Source: an uncultured Geobacter sp.
GTDB lineage: Bacteria > Desulfobacterota > Desulfuromonadia > Geobacterales > DSM-12255
NCBI GenBank assembly: GCA_937871715.1
Contig: CALMOE010000296.1
Span: 1 to 33,383, forward strand
DNA: 33,383 bases
Direction of reading: 5' to 3'
The notes beneath the pieces are model-generated. The model did no database searches and was not told the DNA's origin. It saw only the letters and a list, made by a program, of their open reading frames with translations. Position 1 is the first letter of the stretch, and the number at the start of each line of letters is the position of its first letter. Shown here in pieces: positions 1-19,126 of the stretch. Both the position numbers and the translations under genes were made by a program.

Positions 1-43
1 TTTCTGCCTGTCTCGTGGGCTCGGAGATGTGTATAAGAGACAG
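1..43. other. Illumina Nextera adapter remnant (sequencing artefact)
   Basis: Bases 10-43 match the Illumina Nextera Read 2 transposase adapter over its full 34 nt as I recall it, and 25-43 are the 19-bp Tn5 mosaic end. Translated from base 15 it gives the spurious peptide MGSEMCIRDS, a known signature of untrimmed adapters. Bases 1-9 are of unknown origin. Genomic sequence therefore begins at 44. Confidence 0.97.
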
Positions 44-2162: not shown

Positions 2163-2176
2163 GTCAAAAAGATGAC
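2163..2176. promoter_or_regulatory. FleQ-like box upstream of fliL
   Basis: The site reads GTCAAAAAGATGAC, a GTCA-N6-TGAC dyad. It resembles the FleQ box of Pseudomonas (GTCA-N6-TGAC, from memory). Its centre is about 140 bp before the predicted sigma-54 start site of fliL, a usual distance for an enhancer site. The same dyad occurs before flhA and before the regulator gene at 13174. Binding is inferred. Confidence 0.55.
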
Positions 2177-2283
2177 GCTCCATATGGTGGGAATCTGACG
2201 CCGAAGTTTCAGCCGTATGCGCGCGTGTTTGCGATGTTACGTGATTTCAGCTTGTTAGTTGGTTTTAACGGTTGTTGCTGCGG

Positions 2284-2299
2284 TGGCACTGTGGTTGCA
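2284..2299 (+). promoter_or_regulatory. Sigma-54 promoter of the fliL-flhB operon
   Basis: TGGCAC-N5-TTGCA with the invariant GG and GC exactly 10 bp apart, a near-perfect RpoN -24/-12 element. The predicted start site is near 2310, 42 bp before the fliL ATG. A small dyad (GGTTCA-tgc-TGAACC, 2300-2314) straddles the start site. Confidence 0.85.
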
Positions 2300-2351
2300 G
2301 GTTCATGCTGAACCGCGACGGGGCTTGGTAATAAAGGGTTGGGGAGACAAT

Positions 2352-2837
2352 ATGGCTGAAGGTGTTGAAGAGAAGAGTCAGGGCGGCAAGGGCGGCAAGC
2401 GCAGCAAGCTCATCATTATAATCGCCGTATCTCTCCTGGTTATTTTTCTGGCTGCCTCGTTTGCATACTATAAGTTTGCCGGCGAGAACGAGGCTGAAGC
2501 CGGGGGGGAGAAACAACCCCATGCGGGCAAGGAGCCAGAAGTGGTTTATCCCCTGGAGCCCTTTGTCGTGAATATCAATGAAAAGGAAGATATCCGCTAC
2601 CTGAAGGTGAAGGTGGAGTTCGGCATCAAGAGCGAGAAGGCCAAGGAGATGCTCGAAGCCCGCAAGGCGCCGTTGCGCGATGCCATCCTGGTTCTCCTCA
2701 CCACCAAGACATATGCCGACGTCCAGGAGCTGAGTGGCAAGAGCAAGTTGCGGGATGAGATTTTGTCAGCAGCCAATCGTATCATTCCAGAGGGTGGCGT
2801 GGCTAAGGTCTATTTCACGGATTTCGTGATCCAGTAA
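2352..2837 (+). CDS. fliL: Flagellar basal body-associated protein FliL
   Basis: FliL is an inner-membrane protein that surrounds or supports the stator units at the basal body. The chosen ATG gives 161 residues: a short cytoplasmic Lys/Gly-rich N-terminus (1-20), one membrane segment (about 21-42, LIIIIAVSLLVIFLAASFAYY) and a periplasmic stomatin-like FliL domain. That domain contains VVYPLEPFVVNINEKEDIRYLKVKVEFG and ends with VYFTDFVIQ, the classical family ending. The reading frame is open upstream to 2259, but ATG 2352 has a GGGGAG ribosome site 6-7 nt before it and lies downstream of the sigma-54 promoter. It is the first gene of the operon leading into fliM. Confidence 0.94.
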   Translation: MAEGVEEKSQGGKGGKRSKLIIIIAVSLLVIFLAASFAYYKFAGENEAEAGGEKQPHAGKEPEVVYPLEPFVVNINEKEDIRYLKVKVEFGIKSEKAKEMLEARKAPLRDAILVLLTTKTYADVQELSGKSKLRDEILSAANRIIPEGGVAKVYFTDFVIQ

Positions 2838-2851
2838 GCTGCGGTGGGGGG

Positions 2852-3820
2852 ATGGCAATGGAAAAGATCCTCAGCAGGGAAGAGATCGAAGAGCTTGTCA
2901 ATCTGGTTGCCCAGGGGCGGATCGATCCGGCAAGGGAGTTGGCCCGCCAGGGGGGGGTCGCCAATTACGACTTCTCCGGGATGGAGTACAGGTCATACTC
3001 CCTGCCGAACCTGGATCTCATCTATGACGGCTTCATCCGCTTCAACCGGGTTACCATGTCCAACCGGCTGCGGCGAATCGTCGAGATCAAGAAGGTCGTT
3101 GCAAAATCGTACAAATTCGACGACTTCCTCCCCACGCTGCCATCACCGGTATGCATGGCAATCTACAAGATCGAGCCGCTCAAGGGGGCGGCGCTGGTCG
3201 CAATGGACAGCAGCCTGGTCTTTTCCGTGGTTGACAGTGTTCTCGGAGGCTCAGGGCAGCCAATCGTTACCGCGGAAAACAGGTTGTTCACCTCCATAGA
3301 GCTCAGGCTGATGGAGAAGATCGTCAAGGATCTGCTCCTTGACATGGAGAAGGCGTGGGCTCCCCTTTACGCTACCAGGATGAACCTCCTGCGCATGGAG
3401 ATGAACCCCCGGCTCGTCAATATTGTCCCCTCCGAATATCAGGTGGTAGCCACTACCTTGAGATTCCAGATCGATGATCTTGTGGGCGATATGGTTTTCG
3501 CTATTCCCTACATGACCATTGAGCCGATCAGGGAGAAGTTGCGCAGCGGCCTCCCCTTCGACTCGATGGCTGTCGACCCGATGTGGTCCTGCAGGCTCTC
3601 CGATGAGATCTGCGAGGCTCCCATGGATATCAGGGTGGAGTTGGGGCGCTCAAATATCAACCTGGGCGAACTTCTCGACCTGCAGAAAGGTGACACCATC
3701 ATGCTCGACAAATACAGTCAAGGTGAGATGTCGGTCCTGGTGGGGGGGGTGGAGAAGTTTGTCGGGGTGCCGGGTATCCGGCACGGCAGCAAGGCGGTGC
3801 AGATAACGAAAAGTGCGTAG
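2852..3820 (+). CDS. fliM: Flagellar motor switch protein FliM
   Basis: FliM forms the middle of the C-ring and receives phosphorylated CheY to reverse the motor. The 322-residue protein opens with a CheY-binding peptide of the usual type (ILSREEIEELVNLV). The CheC-like middle domain follows (about 40-230, with DFSGMEYRSYSLPNLDLIYDGFIRFNR), then a C-terminal SpoA domain (about 245-318, IRVELGRSNINLGELLDLQKGDTIMLD). A second in-frame ATG at 2858 is possible. An eight-G run at 3742-3749 encodes part of VLVGGVEKF near the C-terminus and is a potential slippage site. Confidence 0.96.
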   Translation: MAMEKILSREEIEELVNLVAQGRIDPARELARQGGVANYDFSGMEYRSYSLPNLDLIYDGFIRFNRVTMSNRLRRIVEIKKVVAKSYKFDDFLPTLPSPVCMAIYKIEPLKGAALVAMDSSLVFSVVDSVLGGSGQPIVTAENRLFTSIELRLMEKIVKDLLLDMEKAWAPLYATRMNLLRMEMNPRLVNIVPSEYQVVATTLRFQIDDLVGDMVFAIPYMTIEPIREKLRSGLPFDSMAVDPMWSCRLSDEICEAPMDIRVELGRSNINLGELLDLQKGDTIMLDKYSQGEMSVLVGGVEKFVGVPGIRHGSKAVQITKSA

Positions 3821-3834
3821 ATGGGGGGGCGAGT

Positions 3835-4143
3835 GTGAGTGAAATCAGCGAGGTAGTTGAATTGCCAGAGGCCGGAAATGGTGCGAATAAGCTGGAGTTC
3901 ATCTTTGATATCCCCTTGCAGCTGACCGTGGAACTGGGCCGAAGCAAGCTCCTGGTGAAGGAGATCCTGCAACTGGGCCAGGGGGCTGTGGTGGAGCTGA
4001 ACAGGCTCGCCGGGGAGCCGCTGGATGTCTTCGTCAACTCCAAACTTGTTGCTCGCGGCGAGGCGGTTGTGGTCAATGAAAAACTGGGGATAAGGATTGT
4101 GGACATAGTCAGCTCCAAGGAGCGGATGGAGAAGATGCTATGA
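3835..4143 (+). CDS. fliN: Flagellar motor switch protein FliN
   Basis: FliN forms the base of the C-ring and docks the export ATPase complex through FliH. The 102-residue protein is essentially one SpoA domain (about 25-98): FIFDIPLQLTVELGRSKL, then GQGAVVELNRLAGEPLDVFVNSKLVARGEAVVVNEKLGIRI. The start is GTG at 3835; the ATG at 3821 is followed by an in-frame stop, so no ATG start is possible. The last codons overlap the fliO start (ATGCTATGA), indicating translational coupling. Confidence 0.95.
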   Translation: MSEISEVVELPEAGNGANKLEFIFDIPLQLTVELGRSKLLVKEILQLGQGAVVELNRLAGEPLDVFVNSKLVARGEAVVVNEKLGIRIVDIVSSKERMEKML

Positions 4144-4907
4144 GGCACGTCGGGGCATTGTTGGCGACGCTGTTGCTAGTCCCCCTGGCAGAGGCTGCGG
4201 AGAAGGAGGCCGGGGACTTTTCTCTGCTAGGCAGCTTCGTACAGATGCTCGCCTCCCTGGCCCTGGTGCTCGGTGCGATTTTCCTTGTCCAGGCATTGTC
4301 GCGTCGCTGGCTGAATATGCGTGGCGGAGGGGGGGGCGAATCCAGGCACATAAGGTTGGTGGAGACCCGCTATCTGGCCCCGAAGAAGTCGCTGATGCTG
4401 GTGGAGGTAGGGGGGGAGTACCTGCTCCTGAGCGATGGTAACGAGGGTGTCCGGCTTATCAAGCAGGTGGAGGTTAAGGAGAGTGTTGAGCTCGGCAGCG
4501 TCAGCCAGGTGGCAGAGCCCCACTGCGGAACCGGTCCCGCAAGCGCGGGGAGGGGAGCATGGTGCTCTGCGACTGAGCTGCTCGACATACTGGTGCGGAA
4601 TGTGCGCAGGATCTTCGTTTCCGGGCGCAGCCTGGCAGTCACCGTGGCGGATAATCTCCCCTATGAGCGTCTGCGCTGCATTCGCCGTCTCCTGGTCCAG
4701 TCCGGACTTAGCTGTATCGCTTGCTGTCGGAGACTGGCAGTGGGCGTTTGGCAGAAGGTTAGCTATGAGCGCCTGCGAGAGATTCTCCTGCTGGCAGGGA
4801 TGTTTTCCGTAGTCGCCTGGAAGGTTCTCCGGGCATTGGCTGCCCGCCTCCCTTCCGGCAATCTGCGCTGCATACCTGCTCGCATAAGGAGCGGCCTGTT
4901 GCCATGA
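4140..4907 (+). CDS. fliO: Flagellar export protein FliO with an unusual repeat-bearing C-terminal extension
   Basis: FliO is a membrane chaperone that helps assemble the FliP ring of the export gate. Residues 1-20 look like a signal peptide and 31-52 form a membrane helix. The FliO cytoplasmic domain covers about 55-115 (IRLVETRYLAPKKSLMLVEVGGEYLLLS...GVRLIKQV). Most FliO proteins end near there; this one runs to 255 residues. From residue 163 it holds a 34-residue tandem repeat: R163-S-L-A...Y175ERLR, R197-R-L-A...Y209ERLR, and a degenerate R231-A-L-A...LRC. The tail is Arg/Leu-rich with several Cys. Both ends overlap neighbours (fliN, fliP) by ATGA junctions, which argues that the tail is translated in this frame. 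Its function is unknown. Confidence 0.85.
   Translation: MRHVGALLATLLLVPLAEAAEKEAGDFSLLGSFVQMLASLALVLGAIFLVQALSRRWLNMRGGGGGESRHIRLVETRYLAPKKSLMLVEVGGEYLLLSDGNEGVRLIKQVEVKESVELGSVSQVAEPHCGTGPASAGRGAWCSATELLDILVRNVRRIFVSGRSLAVTVADNLPYERLRCIRRLLVQSGLSCIACCRRLAVGVWQKVSYERLREILLLAGMFSVVAWKVLRALAARLPSGNLRCIPARIRSGLLP
4626..4904 (+). repeat. 102-bp tandem repeat encoding the FliO tail (2.7 units)
   Basis: Units start at 4626, 4728 and 4830, exactly 102 bp (34 codons) apart; the third lacks four codons and is degenerate. Units 1 and 2 share CTGGCAGT near the start and TATGAGCG-CTGCG at codons 13-17. By eye 13 of 34 residues are identical between units 1 and 2. Confidence 0.7.
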
Positions 4908-5659
4908 AACGCTGGAGCGGACCTGCAATCTACGCCCTTTTGTTGACGATTCTCACCTCTGCCGGTGCAACGGCGGAGCCGATCGCCATGCCGGACATCG
5001 GCGGGACAGTCGCCGGCCTGGCCACCCCCGGAGGGATCTCCTCGGTCATCCAGATACTGTTCATGATGACCGTGCTCTCCCTGGCGCCGGGAATACTCAT
5101 CATGACGACCTCCTTCACCCGCATCGTCGTGGTCCTATCCTTCCTGAGGAATGCCATGGGCACGCAGCAGGCCCCCTCAAACCAGATAGTCATCGGCCTG
5201 GCCCTGTTCCTGACCTTCTTCATAATGAGCCCAGTCTGGCAGCAGATCAACGTCCAGGCGGTGCAGCCTTACAAATCCAAGAAAATCAGCCAGGAGGAGG
5301 CCTTCAGGAGGGGTGTGAACCCGATCAGAAAGTTCATGCTTTCCCAGACCCGGGAAAAGGACCTCGCACTTTTCATGAGCCTGTCAAAGCTGCCACGGCC
5401 GAAGAGCCCGGCGGACATCCCGACACTGACGATCATCCCCGCCTTCATGGTTTCCGAACTCCGCACCGCTTTCCAGATTGGTTTCCTTCTCTACATACCT
5501 TTCATCGTGGTGGATATGGTGGTGGCATCGGTGCTCATGTCCATGGGGATGATGATGTTGCCGCCGGTCATGATATCGCTCCCTTTCAAGATACTTCTCT
5601 TCGTCCTGGTTGACGGTTGGGGGTTGGTCCTGGGGTCGCTCGTCAAGAGCTTTGCCTAG
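4904..5659 (+). CDS. fliP: Flagellar export gate protein FliP
   Basis: FliP forms the pentameric core of the type III export gate with FliQ and FliR. The 251-residue protein has an N-terminal signal peptide (about 1-24), the hallmark segment SLAPGILIMTTSFTRIVVVLSFLRNAMGTQQAPSNQ at about 59-94, and the C-terminal FMVSELRTAFQIGFLLYIPFIVVDMVVASVLMSMGMMMLPP. Four membrane helices are apparent. The ATG overlaps the fliO stop (ATGA). Length and motifs are canonical. Confidence 0.97.
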   Translation: MKRWSGPAIYALLLTILTSAGATAEPIAMPDIGGTVAGLATPGGISSVIQILFMMTVLSLAPGILIMTTSFTRIVVVLSFLRNAMGTQQAPSNQIVIGLALFLTFFIMSPVWQQINVQAVQPYKSKKISQEEAFRRGVNPIRKFMLSQTREKDLALFMSLSKLPRPKSPADIPTLTIIPAFMVSELRTAFQIGFLLYIPFIVVDMVVASVLMSMGMMMLPPVMISLPFKILLFVLVDGWGLVLGSLVKSFA

Positions 5660-5712
5660 TTAATGGCAGATGCAGGGTGCAGGCGGTTAATACAGCTCAA
5701 GGGAGATTTTCC

Positions 5713-5982
5713 ATGACGCCGGAACTGGTTGTTCAGTTGGCACGGAGGAGTTTCGAAACCGTACTAATACTCTCCGCGCCCCTTCTCGTCCTCAGCATTG
5801 TGGTCGGCCTGCTGGTGAGCATTTTTCAGACCGTTACCACCATCAATGAGGCTACCCTTACCTTTGTGCCGAAGATCGTTGCCGTGATGATCGGGATGCT
5901 GATCTTCTTCCCGTGGATGATGAGCTTCATGTGCGACTTCACCCGCCACGTTTTCGGGATGATAGCCACCCTGAGGCACTGA
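5713..5982 (+). CDS. fliQ: Flagellar export gate protein FliQ
   Basis: FliQ is the small two-helix subunit (four copies) wrapped around FliP/FliR in the export gate. ATG 5713 gives 89 residues, the family's normal size, starting MTPELVVQLARRSFETVLIL. The two membrane helices are at about 15-40 and 55-80, with TTINEATLTFVPKI between them. The frame is open upstream to 5617 inside fliP, but those residues do not belong to the family, and AAGGGAGA lies just before 5713. fliR begins 3 bp after the stop. Confidence 0.96.
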   Translation: MTPELVVQLARRSFETVLILSAPLLVLSIVVGLLVSIFQTVTTINEATLTFVPKIVAVMIGMLIFFPWMMSFMCDFTRHVFGMIATLRH

Positions 5983-5985
5983 CTG

Positions 5986-6771
5986 ATGCCCATTTCGCTG
6001 CCGCTGGTTACCCTTGAGCAGTTTATCCTCTTCATCCTGGTGATGGGGAGGATGGGGGGGATATTCTTCGTCATCCCCCTCTTCGGCGGCAAGGTGGTGC
6101 CGATGCGGATCAAGGCGGCAGTGGTGCTGGCAATGACCCTGCTCCTCTTCCCGATGCTGGCAGGCAGGTCTTCCCAGCTCCCCGGGGACCTACCCTCCCT
6201 CTTCATCATCGTGCTGAGCGAACTGCTCATCGGCCTGGCATTGGGGCTGCTCGCCAATGTGGTTTTCGCAGCCGTGGAGTTCTGCGGGCAGCTGCTCGGC
6301 ATGCAGATCGGTTTCGGCATGGCCACGATCTTCGATCCGACTTTCCAGACTCAGCAGACCCCGGTCAGCGGTTTCCAGAACCTGCTGGCAATGCTCATCT
6401 TTCTCTCTTTCGGCATCCATCACTTTTTCCTCTCCGCCCTGGTGGAGAGTTACCACTCCATCCCCATAGGGGGGGGGAGGCTGAATGGCGAGCTGGTCAG
6501 CTTTGTCATCAGCAGCACGGCAGGGGTCTTCACCCTGGCCGTGAAGCTGGCTGCACCGGTCATGGCGGCTCTCATGGCCTCCAGCATAGTCCTGGGGATC
6601 ATGGCCCGCTCCTTCCCCCAGATGAACGTATTCATGCTGAGCATGCCGATGAACATCGGCATAGGGCTGATCATTCTGGGGCTCTCACTGCCGGTGTTCA
6701 TCTCGGGGGTGGAGAGTGCCTTTGCCACAACCCTGCAACAGCTGAAGGCCGCGTTCAAGCTGCTCTCCTGA
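5986..6771 (+). CDS. fliR: Flagellar export gate protein FliR
   Basis: FliR completes the FliP5Q4R1 gate and contacts FlhB. The 261-residue protein has about six membrane helices and conserved segments such as RMGGIFFVIPLFG and GLLANVVFAAVEFCGQLLGMQIGFGMATIFDPTF. A nine-G run (6469-6477) encodes Gly-Gly-Gly in the loop before RLNGELVSF. That is the longest plus-strand G run seen in a coding region here and a potential frameshift point; the frame is intact in this copy. flhB follows after 9 bp. Confidence 0.96.
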   Translation: MPISLPLVTLEQFILFILVMGRMGGIFFVIPLFGGKVVPMRIKAAVVLAMTLLLFPMLAGRSSQLPGDLPSLFIIVLSELLIGLALGLLANVVFAAVEFCGQLLGMQIGFGMATIFDPTFQTQQTPVSGFQNLLAMLIFLSFGIHHFFLSALVESYHSIPIGGGRLNGELVSFVISSTAGVFTLAVKLAAPVMAALMASSIVLGIMARSFPQMNVFMLSMPMNIGIGLIILGLSLPVFISGVESAFATTLQQLKAAFKLLS

Positions 6772-6780
6772 AAACAAACC

Positions 6781-7842
6781 ATGTCCGATCACGACAAGAG
6801 CTCAAAAACCGAACAACCCACCGGCAAGCGGCTGGATGATGCCAGGCGGAAGGGTAACGTGCCGCGCAGTCAGGAGGTGACCACCATCGTCACCATCCTG
6901 GCTGCCGCGGCTGCTCTCTATTTCGGCGGCGGTTTCATGCTGTCGGTACTGAAGCAGAGCAGCAGGGAGCTTTTTGCCTCCCTGAACCCTGCACAGGTGA
7001 CCGAGGCGGGAGTATACTCCCTGATGCTCAAGACCTTTGCAACCCTTGCCCTGGTTCTGCTCCCCTTCCTCCTCATCCTCTGCTGTGTGGTCCTGGCTGC
7101 CAATGCCTGCCAGGGTGGGATCGTCATGGCAGGCGAGAGGCTTGCCATCGACCCTGCAAGACTGAACCCCGTCAACGGGATAAAGAGGGTCTTCAGCGGC
7201 GAATCGGCTTTCAACGTGCTCAAGTCCCTGTTGAAAACCGTCATTGTCGCTTACATGGCTTACAGGACCATGCGGGGCGAACTGGATGAGATCGTCTCCC
7301 TGACAGGAGACGTGCAAGGGATCGCCAGCTTCATCTGTTCCATATCGTTCAAGCTGGTTTTCCAGATTTGCGGGGTGATGATCGTCCTTGCGGTGCTCGA
7401 CGCCGTGCATGTCAGGTGGCAGCACAGAAGCAACCTGAGGATGACCAAGCAGGAGGTCAAGGATGAGTACAGGGAGACCGAGGGGGATCCGAAGGTCAAG
7501 GGGAGGATCAAGCAGCTCCATTTTGAGAGGGCCAGGCGGAGATTTGCCAGGGTCGTTCCTCAGGCTGACGTGATCATAACAAACCCGACCCATTATGCCG
7601 TGGCACTCAAGTACGATCGCGACAAGATGTGGGCGCCGGTTGTCCTGGCGAAGGGGGCCGACCACCTGGCGCTGAAGATCAGGGAGATTGCGCGGCAGAG
7701 CGGGGTGACCATTGTGGAGAACCGGTTCCTGGCGAGGGAGTTGTACGCCAAGGTGAAAGAGGGTGAGGAGATCCCGGAGGCGCTCTATACCGCAGTGGCT
7801 GAGGTGCTTGCCTATGTCTACGGCCTTAAGGGCAGGGTCTAG
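6781..7842 (+). CDS. flhB: Flagellar export switch protein FlhB
   Basis: FlhB is the substrate-specificity switch of the export apparatus and cleaves itself after FliK signals hook completion. The 353-residue protein starts with the family motif KTEQPTGKRLDDARRKGNVPRSQEV. It has four membrane helices (about 33-210) and a cytoplasmic domain with the autocleavage motif NPTH at residues 268-271 (ADVIITNPTHYAVALKYD). The C-terminus EIPEALYTAVAEVLAYVYGLKGR is canonical. It is the last gene of the run; its stop codon shares bases with the convergent cheB stop in the tetranucleotide CTAG. Confidence 0.97.
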   Translation: MSDHDKSSKTEQPTGKRLDDARRKGNVPRSQEVTTIVTILAAAAALYFGGGFMLSVLKQSSRELFASLNPAQVTEAGVYSLMLKTFATLALVLLPFLLILCCVVLAANACQGGIVMAGERLAIDPARLNPVNGIKRVFSGESAFNVLKSLLKTVIVAYMAYRTMRGELDEIVSLTGDVQGIASFICSISFKLVFQICGVMIVLAVLDAVHVRWQHRSNLRMTKQEVKDEYRETEGDPKVKGRIKQLHFERARRRFARVVPQADVIITNPTHYAVALKYDRDKMWAPVVLAKGADHLALKIREIARQSGVTIVENRFLARELYAKVKEGEEIPEALYTAVAEVLAYVYGLKGRV

Positions 7843-8897
7843 GCGGCGAGCTTGATTATCTCCCTGCCGATTATCTCCAGGGGGAGCACTGAGTCCGCAA
7901 CCCCCCCCTCCACGCATGCCCTTGGCATGCCGTAGATGGTGGAGGTTGCCTCGTCCTGTACCAGGGTGATGCCACCCATCTGCTTCAGGTGCTGCATCCC
8001 CTTGAAGCCATCGCTCCCCATCCCGGTGAGGATTACGCCGAGCATTGCACCGCTGCATGCATCGCTGAGGGTGCGCATCATCAGGTCTATGGACGGGATA
8101 TAGATAAACTGCGGATTGGACTCGGCTGGAGATGTGGCGGCAACGATCTCCCCCTGCTGCCGGCTGAAGGATGTATGCATCCCCCCCGGGCAGATAAGGA
8201 CCCTGCCCGGCCGAAGCTGGTTGCCGTTCTCAGCCTCCAGTATCTCCAGGGGGCATTTTGCATTAAGGTGCGCGGCATAATGCCCGGTGAAGAGTTTAGG
8301 CATATGAATCCCGGCGACTATGGGGTGTGAAAAGCTGGACGGAATATTGGCAAGCACCTTCTGCAACGCCATTGGCCCCCCGGTGGAGGCTCCAATGGCA
8401 ATGGCAGTTATTCTGCCACTCTCCAGAGTCTCAGTATTGGCCAGCGCCTCCCCGAGAAGCGATGTGGACCTGATCATGCCGATCTGATTGCTCAACCCTT
8501 TTACCTTGCGCAGCAGTTCGGCCCGGAAAAACTTAGCCTGCCATGATGTGCCATCGGGGCTTTTTGGGATGAAGTCGACCGCGCCGGACTCAAGCGCCTC
8601 CATGGTAACCATCGCCCCCTCCCTCGTCTGGGTGGAAACCATGAGTACATGGGTGGGGCATTTCGCCATGATCTCCTTCAGCGCGGTGATGCCATCCATG
8701 CGCGGCATCTCGATGTCCATGGTTATCACTTCCGGCTTCAGGTGGCAGGCCTTTTCCACTGCCTCAATGCCGTCGACAGCCGTTCCAACCACCTCGATGT
8801 CAGGGTCGCTCGCCAGGGTTGAGCTGATGGCCAGCCTCATGAAAGCCGAATCATCAACCACCAATATCCTTGTCTTCCCCCTTACTGCTCTGTTCAT
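7839..8897 (-). CDS. cheB: Chemotaxis response regulator protein-glutamate methylesterase CheB
   Basis: CheB removes methyl groups from, and deamidates, chemoreceptors when phosphorylated by CheA, giving adaptation. The 352-residue protein has a receiver domain (about 9-125) with acidic residues D15/D16, phosphoacceptor D61 (TMDIEMPRMDG) and K112. The methylesterase domain (about 160-350) carries the triad S171 (IGASTGGP), H198 (GIHMP) and D296 (GMGSDGFKGM). ATG at 8897 follows GAGGG. It is the last gene of the minus-strand che run and ends against flhB. An eight-C run lies at 7901-7908 (G8 in the coding sense). Confidence 0.97.
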   Translation of the reverse strand: MNRAVRGKTRILVVDDSAFMRLAISSTLASDPDIEVVGTAVDGIEAVEKACHLKPEVITMDIEMPRMDGITALKEIMAKCPTHVLMVSTQTREGAMVTMEALESGAVDFIPKSPDGTSWQAKFFRAELLRKVKGLSNQIGMIRSTSLLGEALANTETLESGRITAIAIGASTGGPMALQKVLANIPSSFSHPIVAGIHMPKLFTGHYAAHLNAKCPLEILEAENGNQLRPGRVLICPGGMHTSFSRQQGEIVAATSPAESNPQFIYIPSIDLMMRTLSDACSGAMLGVILTGMGSDGFKGMQHLKQMGGITLVQDEATSTIYGMPRACVEGGVADSVLPLEIIGREIIKLAA

Positions 8898-8909
8898 GGC
8901 GCCCTCGTG

Positions 8910-9803
8910 TCATGTCCCTACGAATATGTACGTTACCATCTCACGTATCTCAGGTACCCTGTCGTCCAGTTCAAAGCAGAACTTCTCCGCGTCGAAGTTC
9001 AGCCTGTTAGGGGTGAAGTCCTCGATAATCCGCCACCCCTCCTCCTCGGCCAGGTTGAAGCTGATCCACTCCCTGCCGCCGTAGTCGAGCCCCCTCACCG
9101 AACAGAAGAGGTCGGCCAGGTTGATGATGGCCGCCAGCAGCGGCTCGAGCGGCGCTTCGCGGGGGGCATGGTGATGTTCGATGACTTCGCAGTACTCCTG
9201 GGGGAAGTTCCATTTGTTGGCAATGCAAAGCCCTATGTGGCAGTGGGTTGTGCCGATGAGACGCTCCTCCGAAGCGATCCACCTCAGTGGCTCGGATGCA
9301 ATGAGGTCGAGTATCTCCTGGAGCGTTTCCTTCATGTAGTAGCTGAGGAATACTTCGCCGATGTCGTGGACAATACCCGCCAGATATGCTTTTTCAATTT
9401 CCGGGAAGCGGATGCGCTGGGCAATTATGCGCGCGACGATCCCAACCCCAAGGGAGTGTTCCCAGAATGTCTTGATGTCGAATGCGCCGTTCTTGTCGCG
9501 AAATACATCGATTATTGAGCAGGTCATGACTATCTCGCGAATGTGGCGGAACCCAAGGTAGGTGAGGGCATGTCTGACCGAGTTGATCTCATGACGGGGC
9601 CTGTAGAGTGGCGAGTTGACCATCTTGATGACCCTGGCCGCAAGTACCTGGTCGGACAGGATCATGTCGACGATGGTGTCCATTTCCGCGTCGAAGCTGT
9701 TCAACAGCTTCAGTATCTTGGCAGCCACTGTCGGGATAGTGGGGAGGTCGACGCAATCCCTGACCAGCGCCTGGGCTTTTTGCATCATCGGGCTGTTTTC
9801 CAT
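8910..9803 (-). CDS. HDOD-domain protein of the chemotaxis operon
   Basis: HDOD proteins are non-classical relatives of HD phosphohydrolases that often act in signalling; the molecular role is usually unknown. The 297-residue protein has an HDOD domain over about 14-215: DLPTIPTVAAKILKLLNS, LSDQVLAARVIKMVNSPLY, LGFRHIREIVM, WEHSLGVG (H116), GIVHDIGEVF (H146, D147), a CHIG segment and IEHHHAP. A further 80 residues have no recognised domain. ATG 9803 is chosen because AGGAAG sits 7 nt before it; the frame is open to a TTG at 9824 that would overlap cheR. It lies between cheR and cheB, 4 bp and 12 bp away, so it is co-translated with the adaptation enzymes. Confidence 0.85.
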   Translation of the reverse strand: MENSPMMQKAQALVRDCVDLPTIPTVAAKILKLLNSFDAEMDTIVDMILSDQVLAARVIKMVNSPLYRPRHEINSVRHALTYLGFRHIREIVMTCSIIDVFRDKNGAFDIKTFWEHSLGVGIVARIIAQRIRFPEIEKAYLAGIVHDIGEVFLSYYMKETLQEILDLIASEPLRWIASEERLIGTTHCHIGLCIANKWNFPQEYCEVIEHHHAPREAPLEPLLAAIINLADLFCSVRGLDYGGREWISFNLAEEEGWRIIEDFTPNRLNFDAEKFCFELDDRVPEIREMVTYIFVGT

Positions 9804-9807
9804 GTTC

Positions 9808-10683
9808 TCACTTCCTATAGGCAAATCCGCCAGGGAAATGGACCGTCTTGAATCTGTCGTTCACTCCGTGCAGCGATTCCGATTGTCCGACAAAGAGATA
9901 TCCGTAGGGGAGCAGATTATTGTAAAAATGTTGCACGACCTTCGCCTTTGACGACTCGTCAAAGTAGATGAGCACATTGGCGCAGAAGATGAAATCGAAG
10001 CTTTTCATGAAAACCATCCTGCTGTCATCGTACAGATTCAGATGGGAGAAGGTGACGAGCTTTTTAACCTCCTGGGAAAGAACGTATCGCTCCGGATTTT
10101 CCTCCAGGAAGTATTTCTTCCGGTAGTATTCCGGCATGTTTCGCACCGCGTAGCCGTTGAATATCCCCTCCCGCGCCTTGGCCAGTATGGTTTCATTTAT
10201 ATCGGTACCGATCACCTCCACGGTCCACCCCTTGAGGATTGTGGCCATCTTCTCCAGAAGGATCATTGCCAGGGTGTAGGGCTCTTCGCCGGAGGAGGTT
10301 CCCGCGCTCCAGACCCGGATCTTGCGGAAGCCGATTTTCTGCTTTGCCTCAACGATCTCCGGCAGGAACCTGTTCTCCATGGCGCTCAACTGGGGCATGA
10401 TGCGGAAAAAGCGGGTCTCCGTGGTTGTCAGTTCATTGAGAAGGTGGCGCAGCTCCTCCTTGCCGCGCACCCCGTCACGCAATAGCTTGCCGTATTCCTC
10501 ATGGCTTTTGATCCCTGTTGCGCACATGCGGCGGGAGAGGCGGTTTTCCAGGTAATATTTTTTGCTGGCATTCATGTATATGCCGCAGTGACTGTAGATG
10601 AAATCCCTGATCATCTCGAAATCAGCATCTGAGATTTTTACGGATGCCGATCCCTGTCCCATCTGGCAATTGCTTGAGATCAT
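9808..10683 (-). CDS. cheR: Chemotaxis protein methyltransferase CheR
   Basis: CheR methylates glutamates of chemoreceptors using S-adenosylmethionine. With ATG 10683 it has 291 residues. The N-terminal helical domain holds ISDADFEMIRDFIYSHCGIYMNASKKYYLENRLSRRM. The SAM-binding domain holds NELTTTETRFFR, the motif RVWSAGTSSGEEPYTLAMIL, then EVIGTDINETILAKAREGIF, a DFIFCANVLIYFDE motif and a C-terminal GYLFVGQSESLHGV. Ribosome sites are weak; ATG 10662 (MGQGSASVK) is an alternative start. It follows cheA by 7 bp. Confidence 0.95.
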   Translation of the reverse strand: MISSNCQMGQGSASVKISDADFEMIRDFIYSHCGIYMNASKKYYLENRLSRRMCATGIKSHEEYGKLLRDGVRGKEELRHLLNELTTTETRFFRIMPQLSAMENRFLPEIVEAKQKIGFRKIRVWSAGTSSGEEPYTLAMILLEKMATILKGWTVEVIGTDINETILAKAREGIFNGYAVRNMPEYYRKKYFLEENPERYVLSQEVKKLVTFSHLNLYDDSRMVFMKSFDFIFCANVLIYFDESSKAKVVQHFYNNLLPYGYLFVGQSESLHGVNDRFKTVHFPGGFAYRK

Positions 10684-10690
10684 ATGCAGC

Positions 10691-12448
10691 TCACATGGCC
10701 TGCATTCCCGGCAGGTACGAACCATCATAGCCGCCGATAAGCCCAACCGGGTCTACGATGAGGGCCACCTGGCCGTCCCCCAGGATCGTGGAGCCGGCGA
10801 ATCCTGGGATGGTGCCCAGGTATCTCCCCAAGGACTTGATGACCACCTCCTGTTGGCCGAGAAGTCTGGAAACCACCAGGCCGAGCCTCCTCTCCGCCGC
10901 ACCAACAACCACGACGTAGCAGAAAAGCTTCTCCCCGGCGTCATCATCGTTGTTGAACAGCCTGTCCAGTTTTAAAAGAGGCAGAATCTCTTCCCTCAGC
11001 CTGAGCACCTCCTGGCCGCCTACCCGGTGGAAGCTGCCGTTCTCTACCCGGAGAGTCTCCAGAACCGACGATAGGGGGATGGAGTATGTTTCCTTGCCAA
11101 CGCCCACGAGGAGCGTCTGGATGATGGCCAAGGTGAGTGGTAGCCTGATGATGAACTCCGTGCCGCTGCCGACCGTGCTCCGTACTTCGATGATGCCGTT
11201 CATTTTTTTAATGTAGGTCTTCACCACATCCATCCCCACCCCCCGTCCGGAGATGTCAGAGGCGGTCTCCTTTGTGGAAAAGCCGGGGAGGAAGATCAGG
11301 TCCAGGATTTCGCGTTTACCCATGTTGGCCAGCTGAGCCTCTGTCACGACCCCTTTTTCCAGGGCTTTTTGGCTCACCTTTTCGTGATCGATGCCGCGAC
11401 CGTCATCCTTGATGCGTATGACTATATGATTCCCTTCGTGCTCGGCTGAAAGGACCAGAGCCCCCCCGGCGGTCTTTCCGTTGGCAATCCGCTCGTCGGG
11501 CCTTTCCAGGCCGTGGTCGAGGGCGTTGCGGACCAGGTGGACGAGTGGGTCTCCCAGCTCTTCAAGGATCGAGCGATCCAGTTCGGTCTCTTCTCCAACG
11601 AGATGCAACTCAACCTCTTTGCCAAGGTCCCTGGCAAGGTTGCGGACTATGCGGGGAAATTTCCTGAAAATCTTTTCCACCGGAATCATGCGCATCTTCA
11701 GGACCTGCATCTGCAGTTCGCTGGTGATGTAGTTCATTCTTTTCGAGAGGCTGTTGAACTCACGGACAAACTCCAGCCTGTTCACCCCGTTCTGCTGTTC
11801 GCTGCTGAGCTGCAGCATCCTGTTTCGTTCAAGTACCAGTTCCCCCACTTGATTCATGAGATCATCTAGCCTTTTGACATCTACCCTGACGCTGGCACTC
11901 TCGGAGCTCTCATCGCTCCTTGGCTTCCCTGCAGCTTCAGCTGGCGTTTCTGTGGTGGCCGGCTCCCGGATGGCCGTTTCCACGGGTGGGGGATTCTCCC
12001 TTGCCACCTCGCATGTCGCGGTAGCCTCCTTTTTCAGGCAGCTTGCCTCCCCGGAGTTGTCGGAGAGGAAGGGGCTCAGTTTGCCGATGGTCTCCTCGAC
12101 CGGGCGATCCCGCAACTCCCCCTCCGCTATGTCGTTTACCAGCAGCTTTACAAGGTCAGCCCCCTCCAGGATCACATCCATGATCTCGCTTGTCAGCAGC
12201 AGGTCACCCTTGCGGAGCCTGTTGAGCACATCCTCTATTTTGTGGGTTACCTGGACCAGCAGCTCGAAGCCGAGAAAGCTGGAGGTCCCTTTCACGGTAT
12301 GGATCGAGCGGAAAACCCTGTTGAGGAGCTCATTGTCCCGGGGGCTCTTCTCCAGGTTCACCAGGTCGTCGTCGAGTTTTTGCAGAAGTTCGGTGGATTC
12401 GGTGACAAACCCCTCCAGCAACTCCTGATCTTCGCATTCCAGTTTCAT
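10691..12448 (-). CDS. cheA: Chemotaxis histidine kinase CheA
   Basis: CheA autophosphorylates in receptor arrays and passes phosphate to CheY and CheB. The 585-residue protein has an HPt (P1) domain at about 1-110 with phosphorylated H50 (FRSIHTVKGTSSFLGF). A Pro/Thr/Ala-rich linker spans about 130-185. The dimerisation helices run about 187-255. The ATPase domain runs about 260-435, with N-box HLVRNALDHG, DDGRGID and GRGVGMDVV. A CheW-like domain covers about 437-585. No recognisable P2 (CheY/CheB-docking) domain is seen between P1 and P3, which makes it shorter than E. coli CheA (654). ATG 12448 has AGGAG 6 nt upstream; the frame extends to a TTG at 12454. Confidence 0.96.
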   Translation of the reverse strand: MKLECEDQELLEGFVTESTELLQKLDDDLVNLEKSPRDNELLNRVFRSIHTVKGTSSFLGFELLVQVTHKIEDVLNRLRKGDLLLTSEIMDVILEGADLVKLLVNDIAEGELRDRPVEETIGKLSPFLSDNSGEASCLKKEATATCEVARENPPPVETAIREPATTETPAEAAGKPRSDESSESASVRVDVKRLDDLMNQVGELVLERNRMLQLSSEQQNGVNRLEFVREFNSLSKRMNYITSELQMQVLKMRMIPVEKIFRKFPRIVRNLARDLGKEVELHLVGEETELDRSILEELGDPLVHLVRNALDHGLERPDERIANGKTAGGALVLSAEHEGNHIVIRIKDDGRGIDHEKVSQKALEKGVVTEAQLANMGKREILDLIFLPGFSTKETASDISGRGVGMDVVKTYIKKMNGIIEVRSTVGSGTEFIIRLPLTLAIIQTLLVGVGKETYSIPLSSVLETLRVENGSFHRVGGQEVLRLREEILPLLKLDRLFNNDDDAGEKLFCYVVVVGAAERRLGLVVSRLLGQQEVVIKSLGRYLGTIPGFAGSTILGDGQVALIVDPVGLIGGYDGSYLPGMQAM

Positions 12449-12502
12449 CTGCAACTCCTGAAGGGGGGTGGTTGGCCATCGGTTCGTCGGACTGTGCAGA
12501 AG

Positions 12503-12973
12503 CTATTCTTTCATGATGCCCCGCTCTTCAGAGCCGATCAGCTTGTCCAGATCAAGCATGATCAGCAGCCTCTCACCCCTGTTGATCACCCCCGAGACGC
12601 ACTCCTGCTGGACTCCTGCGCTGATCGCCGCAGGGGGGGGGAGAATCTCGGCCTCTGCCACGCGCAGCACCTCGGAAACCGAATCGACTATGAACCCCAT
12701 CAGCTCGCCCGTTACGTCAACCACCATGGTGCGTGTCCGTCTGCCGTTCTCGCTACCGTCCAAATTGAACCTCTTGCGCAGGGATACGAGGGGGATAACT
12801 TTGCCGCGAAGATTCATCACCCCCTCCACATACGTGGGGGTGTTCGGCACGCGTGTCACCTCCGGCATCCGCAGTATCTCCATGATCTTCAGCACCGGTA
12901 TGGCGTACTCTTCCCGGTCCACGCTGAAGCTGACCAGCTGGGTCATCTCTCCTGCTACGTCGTTAAGGCTCAT
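12503..12973 (-). CDS. cheW: Chemotaxis coupling protein CheW
   Basis: CheW couples chemoreceptors to CheA. ATG 12973 gives 156 residues of one CheW/SH3-like domain: QLVSFSVDREEYAIPVLKIMEILRMPEVTRVPNTPTYVEGVMNLRGKVIPLVSLR at about 12-66, then GFIVDSVSEVLRV and the C-terminal GVINRGERLLIMLDLDKLI. The open frame continues upstream to 13105, but AAGGGGG lies 7 nt before 12973 and the earlier residues do not match the family. It is the first gene of the che run, 54 bp before cheA. A nine-G run on the plus strand (12633-12641) encodes Pro-Pro-Pro in the loop EILPPPAA. Confidence 0.95.
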   Translation of the reverse strand: MSLNDVAGEMTQLVSFSVDREEYAIPVLKIMEILRMPEVTRVPNTPTYVEGVMNLRGKVIPLVSLRKRFNLDGSENGRRTRTMVVDVTGELMGFIVDSVSEVLRVAEAEILPPPAAISAGVQQECVSGVINRGERLLIMLDLDKLIGSEERGIMKE

Positions 12974-13004
12974 CTGGATTCCCCCTTTGTTTCCTTGATA
13001 GTTA

Positions 13005-13031
13005 ATATCGGCAGCCAACGGCAAAAGTTGA
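13005..13031 (-). promoter_or_regulatory. Sigma-28 (FliA) promoter of cheW-cheA-cheR-HDOD-cheB
   Basis: Read on the minus strand: TCAACTTT-N11-GCCGATAT. Against the enterobacterial FliA consensus TAAAGTTT-N11-GCCGATAA it matches 13 of 16 bases with exact spacing. The start site would be near 12998, about 25 bp before the cheW ATG. Confidence 0.7.
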
Positions 13032-13100
13032 GAGATTTTTACTCCCGACTTAACTCTCTTCGGGCAGGGCAAGATTATCGTGACGTGGTTGCAATATTGT

Positions 13101-13114
13101 GTCATATGATTGAC
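13101..13114. promoter_or_regulatory. FleQ-like box overlapping the regulator gene's own promoter
   Basis: GTCATATGATTGAC, a third GTCA-N6-TGAC dyad. Its last five bases are the first five of the putative -35 hexamer TTGACA (13110-13115), a position expected for repression, so autoregulation by the protein at 13174 is a reasonable inference. Confidence 0.5.
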
Positions 13115-13137
13115 AGGTCTTGTTAATGTGATATTTT
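13110..13137 (+). promoter_or_regulatory. Sigma-70-type promoter of the sigma-54 regulator gene
   Basis: TTGACA (13110-13115), a 16-bp spacer and TATTTT (13132-13137). The start would be near 13144, leaving a leader of about 30 nt to the ATG at 13174. Confidence 0.5.
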
Positions 13138-13173
13138 TCAGGATGCTGTTGCAATCCTTATTGCGGAGGGCTA

Positions 13174-14562
13174 ATGGAGCGCGCCAGAATCCTCATTGCT
13201 GATGATGACAGAAAGACCAGGGATGTGATCTCCATATTCCTGCGCCATAAGGGGTATGATGTTTTTCAGGCGTTTGACGGCGAGGACGCCCTGGAGAAGG
13301 TCGAACAGCATGATCCCCACCTGGTGATTACCGACTTCATGATGCCGAGGGCCAATGGTCATGAGGTAATCCGGCGGATAAAGGCAGCAAGGCCGGAGAT
13401 AGTCACCATCGCGTACAGTGCGTTTGCCAACTTCGAGATGACAGCGGACCTGCTCAAGGCGGGGGCTTTCTTCTACCTGGAGAAACCTTTCGAGCTGGAG
13501 GTGCTGGAGGCCCAGATAGAGCGGGGGCTGGAGCATTATGCCATGCAGAGCAGGGCATTCAGTTCAGCACCGCGCATCAAGAACCGCTCCCTTTTCCAGA
13601 ACATGATCGGCGAAAGCCAGCGTATGCTGGCTGTTTTCGAGTTGATCGAGAAAATTGCCAACTCCGACTCCACCGTGCTCATCCAGGGGGAGTCGGGGAC
13701 AGGCAAGGAGCTTGTGGCCAAGGCAATACACGACCTCAGCCGGAGAAGAGCCAATCCATTCGTTGCCGTCAACACCGCGGCTATTCCCGATGAGCTTCTG
13801 GAGAGCGAGCTCTTCGGACATGTAAGGGGGGCTTTCACCGGCGCGGTAGCCAATCGCGTCGGGCGCTTCGAGCTTGCCGACGGAGGGACTATCTTTCTCG
13901 ATGAGATCGGCGAGATGCAGATGCGTCTCCAGGCCAAGCTCCTCAGGGTTTTGCAGAACCGCATGCTGGAACCGGTAGGGGCAAGCAGTTCCAGGAAGGT
14001 TGACTTGAGGATCATAGCAGCCACTAACCAGAACCTGGAACGCCTCGTCGCCTCCAGGGATTTCAGGGAGGATCTCTATTACAGGCTCTCCGTCATCCCC
14101 ATCATCCTCCCCCCTTTAAGGGATCGGCGCGAGGATATCCCTCTTCTCATTGAGAGCTTCCTCGACAGGTTTTCCCGGAGCGGCAACCATAAGGTCAAGG
14201 GTATTGAGAAGGGGGTGGTTGAACTTCTCTGCTGTTATGACTGGCCTGGCAACGTCAGGGAGTTGGAGAATCTCATTGAGTACCTCGTCGTCCTTAAGGG
14301 GAGCGGCACGATAACCATGCGCGACGTCCCAGACAAGTACCGTAAGGGAAAGAAGCCGGCCGACAGCGCAACAGTGACCCTGCCGGAGGGGGGGCTCTGC
14401 CTCAACAGCGCAGTGGCGCAATTCGAGGACAGGCTGATCAGTCAAGCCCTGGAGATGTCCGGCGGCAACAAGAAAGAGGCTGCTCAGCTGCTCAACCTGA
14501 AGAGGACCACCCTCATCGAGAAGCTCAAGAAGAAGAATATCGCCATGGCAACAAGCGACTAG
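13174..14562 (+). CDS. Sigma-54-dependent flagellar response regulator (FgrM/FlrC/FleQ type)
   Basis: A bacterial enhancer-binding protein that should activate RpoN polymerase at flagellar promoters. The 462 residues contain an intact receiver (about 5-118; D10-D12, phosphoacceptor D54 in ITDFMMPRANG, K104). The AAA+ domain (about 143-380) has Walker A GESGTGKE (172-179), the sigma-54-contacting GAFTGA loop (219-224) and Walker B IFLDEIGE. A Fis-type helix-turn-helix lies at 430-456 (NKKEAAQLLNLKRTTLIEKLKKK), close to that of FleQ as I recall it. Position and architecture match FgrM, described as the flagellar master regulator in Geobacter; orthology is not proven. No partner histidine kinase gene is in the window. 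Three FleQ-like boxes nearby are candidate targets. Confidence 0.92.
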   Translation: MERARILIADDDRKTRDVISIFLRHKGYDVFQAFDGEDALEKVEQHDPHLVITDFMMPRANGHEVIRRIKAARPEIVTIAYSAFANFEMTADLLKAGAFFYLEKPFELEVLEAQIERGLEHYAMQSRAFSSAPRIKNRSLFQNMIGESQRMLAVFELIEKIANSDSTVLIQGESGTGKELVAKAIHDLSRRRANPFVAVNTAAIPDELLESELFGHVRGAFTGAVANRVGRFELADGGTIFLDEIGEMQMRLQAKLLRVLQNRMLEPVGASSSRKVDLRIIAATNQNLERLVASRDFREDLYYRLSVIPIILPPLRDRREDIPLLIESFLDRFSRSGNHKVKGIEKGVVELLCCYDWPGNVRELENLIEYLVVLKGSGTITMRDVPDKYRKGKKPADSATVTLPEGGLCLNSAVAQFEDRLISQALEMSGGNKKEAAQLLNLKRTTLIEKLKKKNIAMATSD

Positions 14563-14564
14563 CT

Positions 14565-14580
14565 TGGAATCTCTTTTGCA
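14565..14580 (+). promoter_or_regulatory. Sigma-54 promoter of the transglycosylase gene
   Basis: TGGAATCTCTTTTGCA: GG and GC 10 bp apart, with the -12 half TTTTGCA ideal and the -24 half less so. The predicted start is near 14591, inside the dyad at 14589-14615. Confidence 0.7.
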
Positions 14581-14588
14581 TGGAACGA

Positions 14589-14615
14589 CAGTGGGGAGTT
14601 AACAACTCCCCACTG
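14589..14615. repeat. Perfect 12-bp inverted repeat at the predicted mRNA 5' end
   Basis: Arms CAGTGGGGAGTT and AACTCCCCACTG around the loop AAC. There is no T-run after it, so it is not a typical terminator. Because the sigma-54 start site falls at its left edge, the transcript would begin with this stem-loop; a DNA operator is the alternative. Confidence 0.85.
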
Positions 14616-14635
14616 GAAACGCGGGGAGACTCTCC

Positions 14636-15376
14636 ATGTCATTAGACCCTTTCGCAACATTGAAGACTCTCCCGATTTTTGGGGGGAGCAGGCAGCCCAG
14701 CCGGAGCGGCATGGGACAGCAGTCCGAATCGTCCTTTGCCGAGCAACTTCTCCGCGCCGGGGACAGTTCCGCGCCTTGCCCGGGAGGGAGCTCGCCGGCC
14801 GAGGCCGCTGAGATCCTGCGTCTCGCCATGCTCAGGTCTGCCATGGATATCACCGCCTCTTGTCCTGTCGATGAAAGTCCCCTCCATGCCGGCCAGAGCA
14901 GTCGTATGCTGCGCCAGTTTGCCATCGCCGCTGAGGATAACCGGGTGACGGAAACTCCCGGCCCAGTGGAAAGCCGGACACCAGGCAGACATGATGGTCG
15001 CTACGATGGAATCATATGCAAGGCATCAAGGCGATACGGCGTTGATGAGGGGCTGATCCGGGCGGTCATCCGCGCGGAGAGCGATTTCAACCCCAGGGCG
15101 GTCTCTTCCGCAGGCGCCCAGGGGCTGATGCAGCTGATGCCGGCCACTGCCAGATCCCTGGGGGTTACCGACCCGTTCGATGCCGAGCAGAACGTCATGG
15201 CCGGCACAAGGTTCCTTGCAGATATGCTCAAGCGTTACTCAGGTTGCATTGACTCCGCCCTTGCCGCCTATAACTGGGGTCCAGGGAATCTGGACCGTCA
15301 CCCCACATCTCTCCCCAGGGAGACCCGTAACTACCTGGCCAGGGTAAAAGGCTACTACTCCGGATCTGTTGCCTGA
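14636..15376 (+). CDS. Lytic transglycosylase (SLT domain) of the flagellar locus
   Basis: Cleaves peptidoglycan glycan strands, presumably to let the rod pass. The 246 residues have a low-complexity N-terminal half (1-120) and an SLT/goose-lysozyme-type domain (about 123-240). The domain carries catalytic E148 (RAESDFNPRAVSSAGAQGLMQLMP) and AAYNWGPG. No signal peptide is visible, so export could go through the flagellar type III apparatus or another route. The FlgJ at 24044 lacks a muramidase domain, so this enzyme is a good candidate to supply that missing activity, as separate flagellar transglycosylases do elsewhere. The ATG follows GGGGAGACTCTCC. It stands alone between the regulator and flhA. 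Confidence 0.88.
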   Translation: MSLDPFATLKTLPIFGGSRQPSRSGMGQQSESSFAEQLLRAGDSSAPCPGGSSPAEAAEILRLAMLRSAMDITASCPVDESPLHAGQSSRMLRQFAIAAEDNRVTETPGPVESRTPGRHDGRYDGIICKASRRYGVDEGLIRAVIRAESDFNPRAVSSAGAQGLMQLMPATARSLGVTDPFDAEQNVMAGTRFLADMLKRYSGCIDSALAAYNWGPGNLDRHPTSLPRETRNYLARVKGYYSGSVA

Positions 15377-15436
15377 CAACCGTCGGGCAGAGCAGCTCTC
15401 CCCACGGGATTTGTCTTGCCCATACCCACCCTGCTT

Positions 15437-15450
15437 GTCAAATCATTGAC
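15437..15450. promoter_or_regulatory. FleQ-like box upstream of flhA
   Basis: GTCAAATCATTGAC, GTCA-N6-TGAC, 11 of 14 bases like the FleQ consensus GTCAATAAATTGAC (from memory). It is centred about 173 bp before the predicted flhA start site. A second, gapless GTCATGAC lies close by at about 15456-15463. Confidence 0.55.
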
Positions 15451-15590: not shown

Positions 15591-15606
15591 TGGCATGCCG
15601 GTTGCA
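15591..15606 (+). promoter_or_regulatory. Sigma-54 promoter of the flhA operon
   Basis: TGGCATGCCGGTTGCA with GG and GC 10 bp apart. The start would be near 15617, giving a leader of about 56 nt before flhA. The rest of the 296-bp gap from 15377 holds the FleQ-like box and no gene that I can see. Confidence 0.85.
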
Positions 15607-19088: not shown

Positions 19089-19126
19089 ATGGGCGGCCCG
19101 GTGCATTGTAACGTTTTGGAGTTCTT

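Follow-up and report, generated by a model that had tools for sequence, protein, structure and literature searches.

A FleQ-like box with conserved partners in Geobacterales: predicted site of the flagellar master regulator in two promoter architectures

The closest described system is that of FleQ in Pseudomonas aeruginosa and Pseudomonas putida, an AAA+ regulator with a Fis-type helix-turn-helix (HTH) that has flhA, fliL and fliE among its targets and a 14-base-pair (bp) pseudopalindromic site, GTCA-N6-TGAC, with an A/T centre (PMC6120874, PMC10723142, PMC5026340; all literature is cited from excerpts of the sources). This box, established in Pseudomonas (PMC10723142, PMC5026340), is quoted as GTCaNTAAAtTGAC in PMC6120874 and as the 14-bp GTCAAT/ATTGAC in PMC10723142. 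In Desulfovibrio vulgaris, the FlrA/FleQ-like regulator DVU2894 has the same motif, yGTCA-N6-TGACr, predicted ahead of its own gene, with flagellar operons in its regulon and autoregulation proposed; the site quoted for FlrA of Vibrio cholerae, GTCA-N6-TGGC, has the same half-site and spacing (PMC4641369). The Geobacter flagellar master regulator, FgrM, is an RpoN-dependent enhancer-binding protein essential for the flagellum (PMC8844916). An RpoN promoter of Geobacter sulfurreducens fliL has been mapped by primer extension, and flagella are considered important for Geobacter relatives in reaching iron oxides (PMC2725144). Here we describe three FleQ-like boxes in a stretch of 33,383 bases from an uncultured Geobacter sp. 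(GenBank assembly GCA_937871715.1, contig CALMOE010000296.1, positions 1 to 33,383), hereafter the window. GTCA-N6-TGAC is very probably the dimer binding site of a FleQ-like (FgrM-type) enhancer-binding protein encoded in the same window, and would be used in two architectures. The presence, position and conservation of the box, its co-occurrence with sigma-54 elements and with the regulator, and the FleQ-like recognition helix of that protein were established by sequence, and these data support an interpretation of the motif as the master-regulator site, with the box at 13101 recast as autoregulatory.

The motif searched was GTCA-N6-TGAC, and the reversed pattern served as control. The window contained three exact matches against 0.49 expected, and 1 of 100 shuffles also reached three. 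As a preliminary description of this DNA had reported, these three boxes lie between genes, at the positions listed in Table 1, and they are the sole exact matches in the window. The distances it gave from box centre to inferred start site, about 140 bp for fliL and 173 bp for flhA, were also confirmed; measured to the -24 element, the same two boxes are 107 and 140 bp away. The description had further assigned the boxes to three flagellar promoters. This holds for the two sigma-54 operon promoters, but the box at 13101 belongs to the promoter of the regulator gene itself, lying about 60 bp ahead of the ATG within the divergent cheW/regulator gap, and no sigma-54 element was found beside it in the window, the cheW side included. 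The Pseudomonas FleQ box to which the description had likened the motif agreed with the one quoted in PMC6120874 and PMC10723142.

In the whole genome of the window (3,425,549 bases in 304 contigs), the bare motif occurred in 54 places, compared with 29 for the reversed control, and thus does not by itself define or diagnose a site. A paired search, in which the box was required 97-156 bp ahead of YGGCAY-N5-TTGC, was run on 58 genomes comprising the window's own, one congener, and members of the family and the order. This search recovered 61 pairs, and none with the reversed control. Sorted by coordinates, 26 pairs preceded flhA, 26 preceded fliL (defined as lying no more than 1000 bp from fliM, fliL being the intervening gene) and 9 lay elsewhere. 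The window genome contributed two pairs, both inside the window. The motif ahead of RpoN promoters was thus flagellar-specific on a genome scale, with 52 of 61 pairs at flhA or fliL. Three of the nine other pairs were ahead of one diguanylate cyclase gene, and six were at further places, four of these within reading frames (L223, in flgD; L225; L231; L256). Looser sigma-54 patterns gave 6 matches against 0 for the control, and 18 against 1, the latter partly at the same places. Three of all these matches were in non-flagellated genomes (L231 and L360 in G001, L354 in G007). The two remaining, apparently intergenic pairs were L229 in G026, at a gene for a small exported protein with a methyl-accepting chemotaxis protein gene divergent, and L248 in G033, at a methyltransferase-like gene.

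FlhA and FliM were present in 49 of the 58 genomes. The flhA box was exact in 35 of these 49, the window's own included, and carried one mismatch in 13. At fliL, a sigma-54 element with at most one mismatch was found in 28 of 48 readable genomes (G011, with only 130 bp of upstream sequence, was left out); where this element was present the box was exact in 26 of 28 and had one mismatch in 2, whereas in the 20 genomes lacking it the box was exact in 1 and had one mismatch in 2. Among 30 flgB loci, 20 had an exact box, 9 had a one-mismatch box and 1 showed no box over 340 bp. In the window genome, flgB is on contig C70 and carries GTCAAAATAATGGC 85 bp ahead of TGGTACGTCTTTTGC. By our estimate, a one-mismatch box occurs by chance in about 12% of 340-bp stretches, and such boxes are weak evidence on their own. 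In the window genome at flgB, and in G013 and G021 at flhA, the one-mismatch box has the form of the V. cholerae FlrA site, GTCA-N6-TGGC. Conservation in relatives, a check that the preliminary description had set, supports its prediction of a regulator site at flhA and fliL.

Because the relatives are not independent, genera provide a fairer count than genomes, and a blind scan was scored in this way, covering every one of the 3840 dyads of four-base half-sites separated by 0-14 bases. GTCA-N6-TGAC ranked first upstream of the regulator gene (12 of 16 genera; next best, 7) and upstream of fliL (9 of 16; next, 7). It also ranked first at flgB, where it was present in 4 of 11 genera, tied on genera and first on genomes. 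At flhA it ranked second (13 of 17 genera), behind TCAA-N4-TTGA (14 of 17), itself the inner part of this box. These results bear on the explanation that the three window matches are chance palindromes between genes, for which the 54 genomic occurrences of the bare motif and the one shuffle in 100 that reached three matches could be cited. Conservation at a fixed position in up to 13 of 17 genera, the 61 pairs against 0, and a rank of 1 or 2 among 3840 dyads all argue against chance, which is exceedingly improbable here and, as far as sequence allows, already refuted.

The regulator encoded beside the 13101 box is an AAA+ sigma-54 activator (PF00158, E 3.8e-72; GAFTGA at residue 219), for which no NCBIfam model reached its cut-off among the matches listed. 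Searched whole against the PDB, it matched FleQ best (E 1.2e-91). With the HTH alone, FleQ chains ranked first and second (RIRRTTLVEKMRK), at 33 bits compared with 21 for ZraR and 19 for NtrC, so that the FleQ-like Fis helix noted earlier was upheld; the helix has the pattern RTTLxEK. The LNLKRTT segment was found in 40 of 40 orthologues, with many alignments stopping right after it, which parallels the near-invariant box. An orthologue, whole or in pieces, was present in 49 of 49 flagellated and 0 of 9 non-flagellated genomes. Forty-seven of the 49 orthologues scored at E 1e-142 or better (G011 was partial, and G013 and G021 have two copies each), and that of G019 was cut by a contig end. In the nine non-flagellated genomes, three of which are only 78-81% complete, the best matches had E values of 1e-112 to 1e-124, and an HTH check in six of the nine revealed nothing close.

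It could be argued that another enhancer-binding protein of the genome occupies the boxes and that the local regulator acts elsewhere, given that its own genome holds at least 28 related regulators that were scored and that G013 and G021 each have two copies of the regulator. However, the next best HTH by E value in the window genome is only 33% identical (E 1.3e-5, against 8.9e-37), one box sits on the promoter of this very regulator, and regulator and flagella co-occur without exception in the sample. This explanation is accordingly given little credence, and the local regulator is preferred as the protein predicted to bind the boxes.

The name FgrM is used here for this type of regulator; it fits the Geobacter description cited at the outset, and orthology to the named gene is putative. 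FgrM is said to go back to Ueki et al. 2012, and fgrM is reportedly broken in a laboratory G. sulfurreducens strain. In excerpts of PMC8844916, fgrM is given as absent from that strain. The regulator gene is likewise broken in G048 (L369, 2446-5566), where a transposase gene interrupts it; both the box at flhA and the autoregulatory one are retained there.

Although its HTH is closest to that of FleQ, the protein is, judged by three sequence features, not a FleQ. First, its receiver is intact, with the acid pair D10/D11, D54 in ITDFMMP, and K104, whereas the FleQ receiver is described as phosphorylation-incompetent. Second, the cyclic diguanylate (c-di-GMP) ligands R138, R144, R185 and R334 of FleQ are K, Q, K and R in the window regulator, so that the contacts R138/R144/R185 reported in PMC10723142 are replaced by K/Q/K; arginine was found at the R144-aligned position in 0 of 40 orthologues (L043 is gapped there). 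Third, no FlhG/FleN, the partner ATPase of FleQ, was found in the window genome at E 1e-15, and an empty gap of 38 bp separates flhF from fliA (19088-19127). FlhG was found in 46 of the 49 flagellated genomes, and the only others lacking it were G004 and G037, in which the autoregulatory box is lacking as well. FleQ is also reported to act near the flhA, fliE and fliL promoters without looping, unlike the present arrangement, in which distances of 107 and 140 bp separate the two sigma-54 boxes from the -24 element. The Desulfovibrio regulator differs in other respects: DVU2894 has no N-terminal domain and carries GAFTHA, no conserved sigma-54 promoter was detected near its gene, and its site is known by prediction only (PMC4641369). 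The window system combines a full receiver and GAFTGA with a -35 hexamer that the box overlaps, and its sigma-54 partners are similarly spaced. FlrA is from another phylum, and its binding is blocked by c-di-GMP (PMC3930126).

The box at 13101 overlaps the sigma-70-like -35 hexamer of the regulator gene and probably mediates autorepression rather than activation. P. aeruginosa fleQ is itself sigma-70 dependent, according to the title of a reference in PMC3930126. Among the 40 fetched orthologue loci, 36 had an exact box no more than 140 bp from the start, mostly GTCATTTTATTGAC or GTCATTTAATTGAC. In 36 of these 36 boxes the right end reads TTGACA or TTGACT and is followed 15-18 bp on by a TATAAT-like hexamer, which matches at 5 or more of 6 positions in 30 of the 36. 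This overlap with the -35 hexamer in 36 of 40 relatives suggests autorepression, and the left half, GTCA, is kept although it lies outside the promoter hexamers. The autoregulatory box was exact in 43 of 48 genomes with a readable gene start, the 43 being the 36 above with the window, G011, G045, G047, G049, G053 and G048 added; G019 was left out since its gene start is cut off. Thus, the earlier prediction of a regulator binding site at three promoters stands for fliL and flhA, at sigma-54 elements, while the 13101 box covers a sigma-70-like -35 hexamer and is probably not an activation site.

Alternatively, the box at the regulator gene could activate, by positive autoregulation, or serve the divergent cheW operon. 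On the cheW side, a sigma-54-like element with 1-2 mismatches was present in 5 of 34 fetched loci that have both box and cheW (L039, L040, L041 and L049 at 84-97 bp; L038 at 64 bp), and a pattern search added G045, G053 and G057 (L356-L358). The element is absent from the window and from 29 of the 34 loci, and a site that overlaps a -35 hexamer is commonly one of occlusion; both roles are considered unlikely, and a dual role of the 13101 box that includes the cheW operon was not adopted. Autorepression is retained as the preferred reading.

In the model that we propose, the enhancer architecture places the box about 75-160 bp ahead of a -24/-12 element (about 50 bp at flgB in one genus). Bound there, the regulator would loop to sigma-54 polymerase and fire the early flagellar operons, namely fliL, flhA with flhF-fliA, and flgB. 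In the second architecture, the box on the -35 hexamer of the sigma-70-type promoter would let the regulator occlude and shut down its own gene. Binding, activation, looping and autorepression are what we infer from the arrangement described above.

Several observations weigh against this model. At the regulator gene, the -10 hexamer of the window is weak (4/6), 5 of 48 genomes lack the box (G004, G013, G021, G037 and G052), and the -35 hexamer could by itself account for the maintenance of part of the right half. At flhA, G019 lacks the box, and a sigma-54 element within two mismatches was not found in 7 of 49 genomes, all of family f4 (G015, G023, G025, G030, G036, G050 and G056). The flgB box of the window genome carries one mismatch, the bare motif is frequent genome-wide, the looser sigma-54 pattern yields one reversed-control match against 18, and the relatives amount to 17 genera at most. 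In Pseudomonas, the P. aeruginosa consensus is reported to be unreliable in P. fluorescens, where most genomic matches are unbound, and chromatin immunoprecipitation sequencing in P. fluorescens and P. putida yielded no robust FleQ consensus, according to excerpts of PMC6120874.

Boxes of this type have been described from Pseudomonas and were predicted for Desulfovibrio (PMC4641369); the assignment in Geobacterales, the two architectures and the extra target described below appear to be new. No published binding site for the Geobacter flagellar regulator was found in the open-licence PMC literature. A conserved 14-bp box with fixed partners makes the flagellar regulon readable directly from sequence, and the data suggest that a regulator with a phosphorylatable receiver can operate through a FleQ-type box, in an order where some receivers have decayed.

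Table 1. Features of the box-bearing loci, by position in the window
Feature	Position	Strand	Remarks
FleQ-like box, fliL operon; putative enhancer site	2163-2176	.	GTCAAAAAGATGAC; exact match
Sigma-54 -24/-12 element, fliL operon	2284-2298	+	TGGCACTGTGGTTGC; 0 mismatches to TGGCAC-N5-TTGC
fliL, first gene of fliLMNOPQR-flhB operon	2352-2837	+	NCBIfam FliL models, best E 5.5e-30, below their cut-offs
cheW open reading frame, first of divergent cheW-cheA-cheR-HDOD-cheB run	12503-13105	-	Pfam CheW
FleQ-like box over the regulator's own promoter; putative autoregulatory site, repression inferred	13101-13114	.	GTCATATGATTGAC
-35-like hexamer TTGACA	13110-13115	+	Overlaps right half-site of the 13101 box
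-10-like hexamer TATTTT	13132-13137	+	16-bp spacer; 4/6 match, weaker than in most relatives
Regulator, FgrM-like: receiver, sigma-54 AAA+, Fis HTH; 462 amino acids	13174-14562	+	Pfam Response_reg, Sigma54_activat, HTH_8
Fis-type HTH with LNLKRTTLIEKLKK recognition helix	14425-14544	+	LNLKRTT conserved; FleQ best PDB match
FleQ-like box, flhA operon; putative enhancer site	15437-15450	.	GTCAAATCATTGAC; exact match
Sigma-54 -24/-12 element, flhA operon	15591-15605	+	TGGCATGCCGGTTGC; 1 mismatch
flhA, first gene of flhA-flhF-fliA-flgFGAHI...	15673-17754	+	TIGR01398 E 3.5e-268, above cut-off
flhF and fliA (sigma-28), downstream of flhA promoter	17748-19870	+	No flhG between

Receivers were compared in 47 regulators other than the window's own. 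Twenty-seven of the 47 kept the acid pair, acceptor aspartate and lysine (the G011 sequence is truncated before the lysine), and the MMP motif was lost in 20, all of family f4 (L051-L069 and G048). D10, D11 or D54 was changed in 19 of these 20 decayed receivers, which apparently represent an independent step toward a FleQ-like state. The f4 genomes also differed in the number of boxes. With start spacings of 16-19 allowed, a second flhA box with at most one mismatch was found 17-18 bases after the first in 17 of 20 genomes with decayed receivers, compared with 1 of 27 with intact receivers, at 19 bp; the receiver of G052, also from f4, is intact, and this genome has a single flhA box. At flgB, where tandem boxes were counted by eye, 10 of 13 f4 loci had them, each time at 17 bp, and none of the 17 other loci did. 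When mapped on a tree built from the AAA+-HTH part, receiver decay took one change and the tandem two, so that decay and tandem boxes are one correlated transition and not a statistic. A Fisher test of tandem against receiver state (p 7e-9) ignores kinship and was not used as evidence.

The motif also predicted a further target in relatives. Pairs precede a gene for a GGDEF protein (diguanylate cyclase) in G006, G009 and G054. When the 58 genomes were searched with this cyclase, the box was present at 12 of the 12 best homologues (L329-L340, at least 42% identity, the three discovery loci included), exact in 10 and with one mismatch in 2, and all 12 also had a sigma-54-like element that deviated at no more than two positions. 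An exact box was found in 0 of 13 lower-scoring homologues (L341-L353), several of which match in the GGDEF domain only. One of these 13 is from the window genome (C289, 37-39% identical); it lacks both the box and a sigma-54 element, so that the link to the cyclase fails in that genome. In several Geobacterales, a sigma-54 cyclase gene with a FleQ-like box is predicted to link flagellar control and c-di-GMP, the regulon thereby gaining a c-di-GMP enzyme in these species.

Taken further, one Geobacterales lineage may have swapped a phosphorylation switch for a DNA-encoded one, in which regulators with an intact receiver would use one box and those with a decayed receiver two, cooperative binding at the tandem boxes replacing phosphorylation-driven assembly, and the regulon would feed back on c-di-GMP through the sigma-54 diguanylate cyclase gene in several species. 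This combined scenario is speculative and rather doubtful; counting against the swapped switch, an aspartate persists at position 54 in 15 of the 20 decayed receivers.

Three minor observations were made. In flhA upstream regions of f1 and f3 (for example L095 and L085), a conserved TTCAAAATGNCG-like element lies about 8-12 bp past the box and may represent either another, degenerate box or a site for IHF. The true start of cheW is probably further inside its open reading frame. Finally, the contig begins with sequence that we take to be the Nextera transposase adapter (window 10-43, with AGATGTGTATAAGAGACAG at 25-43); this is assembly contamination, and the open reading frame starting at 15 is therefore partly an artefact.

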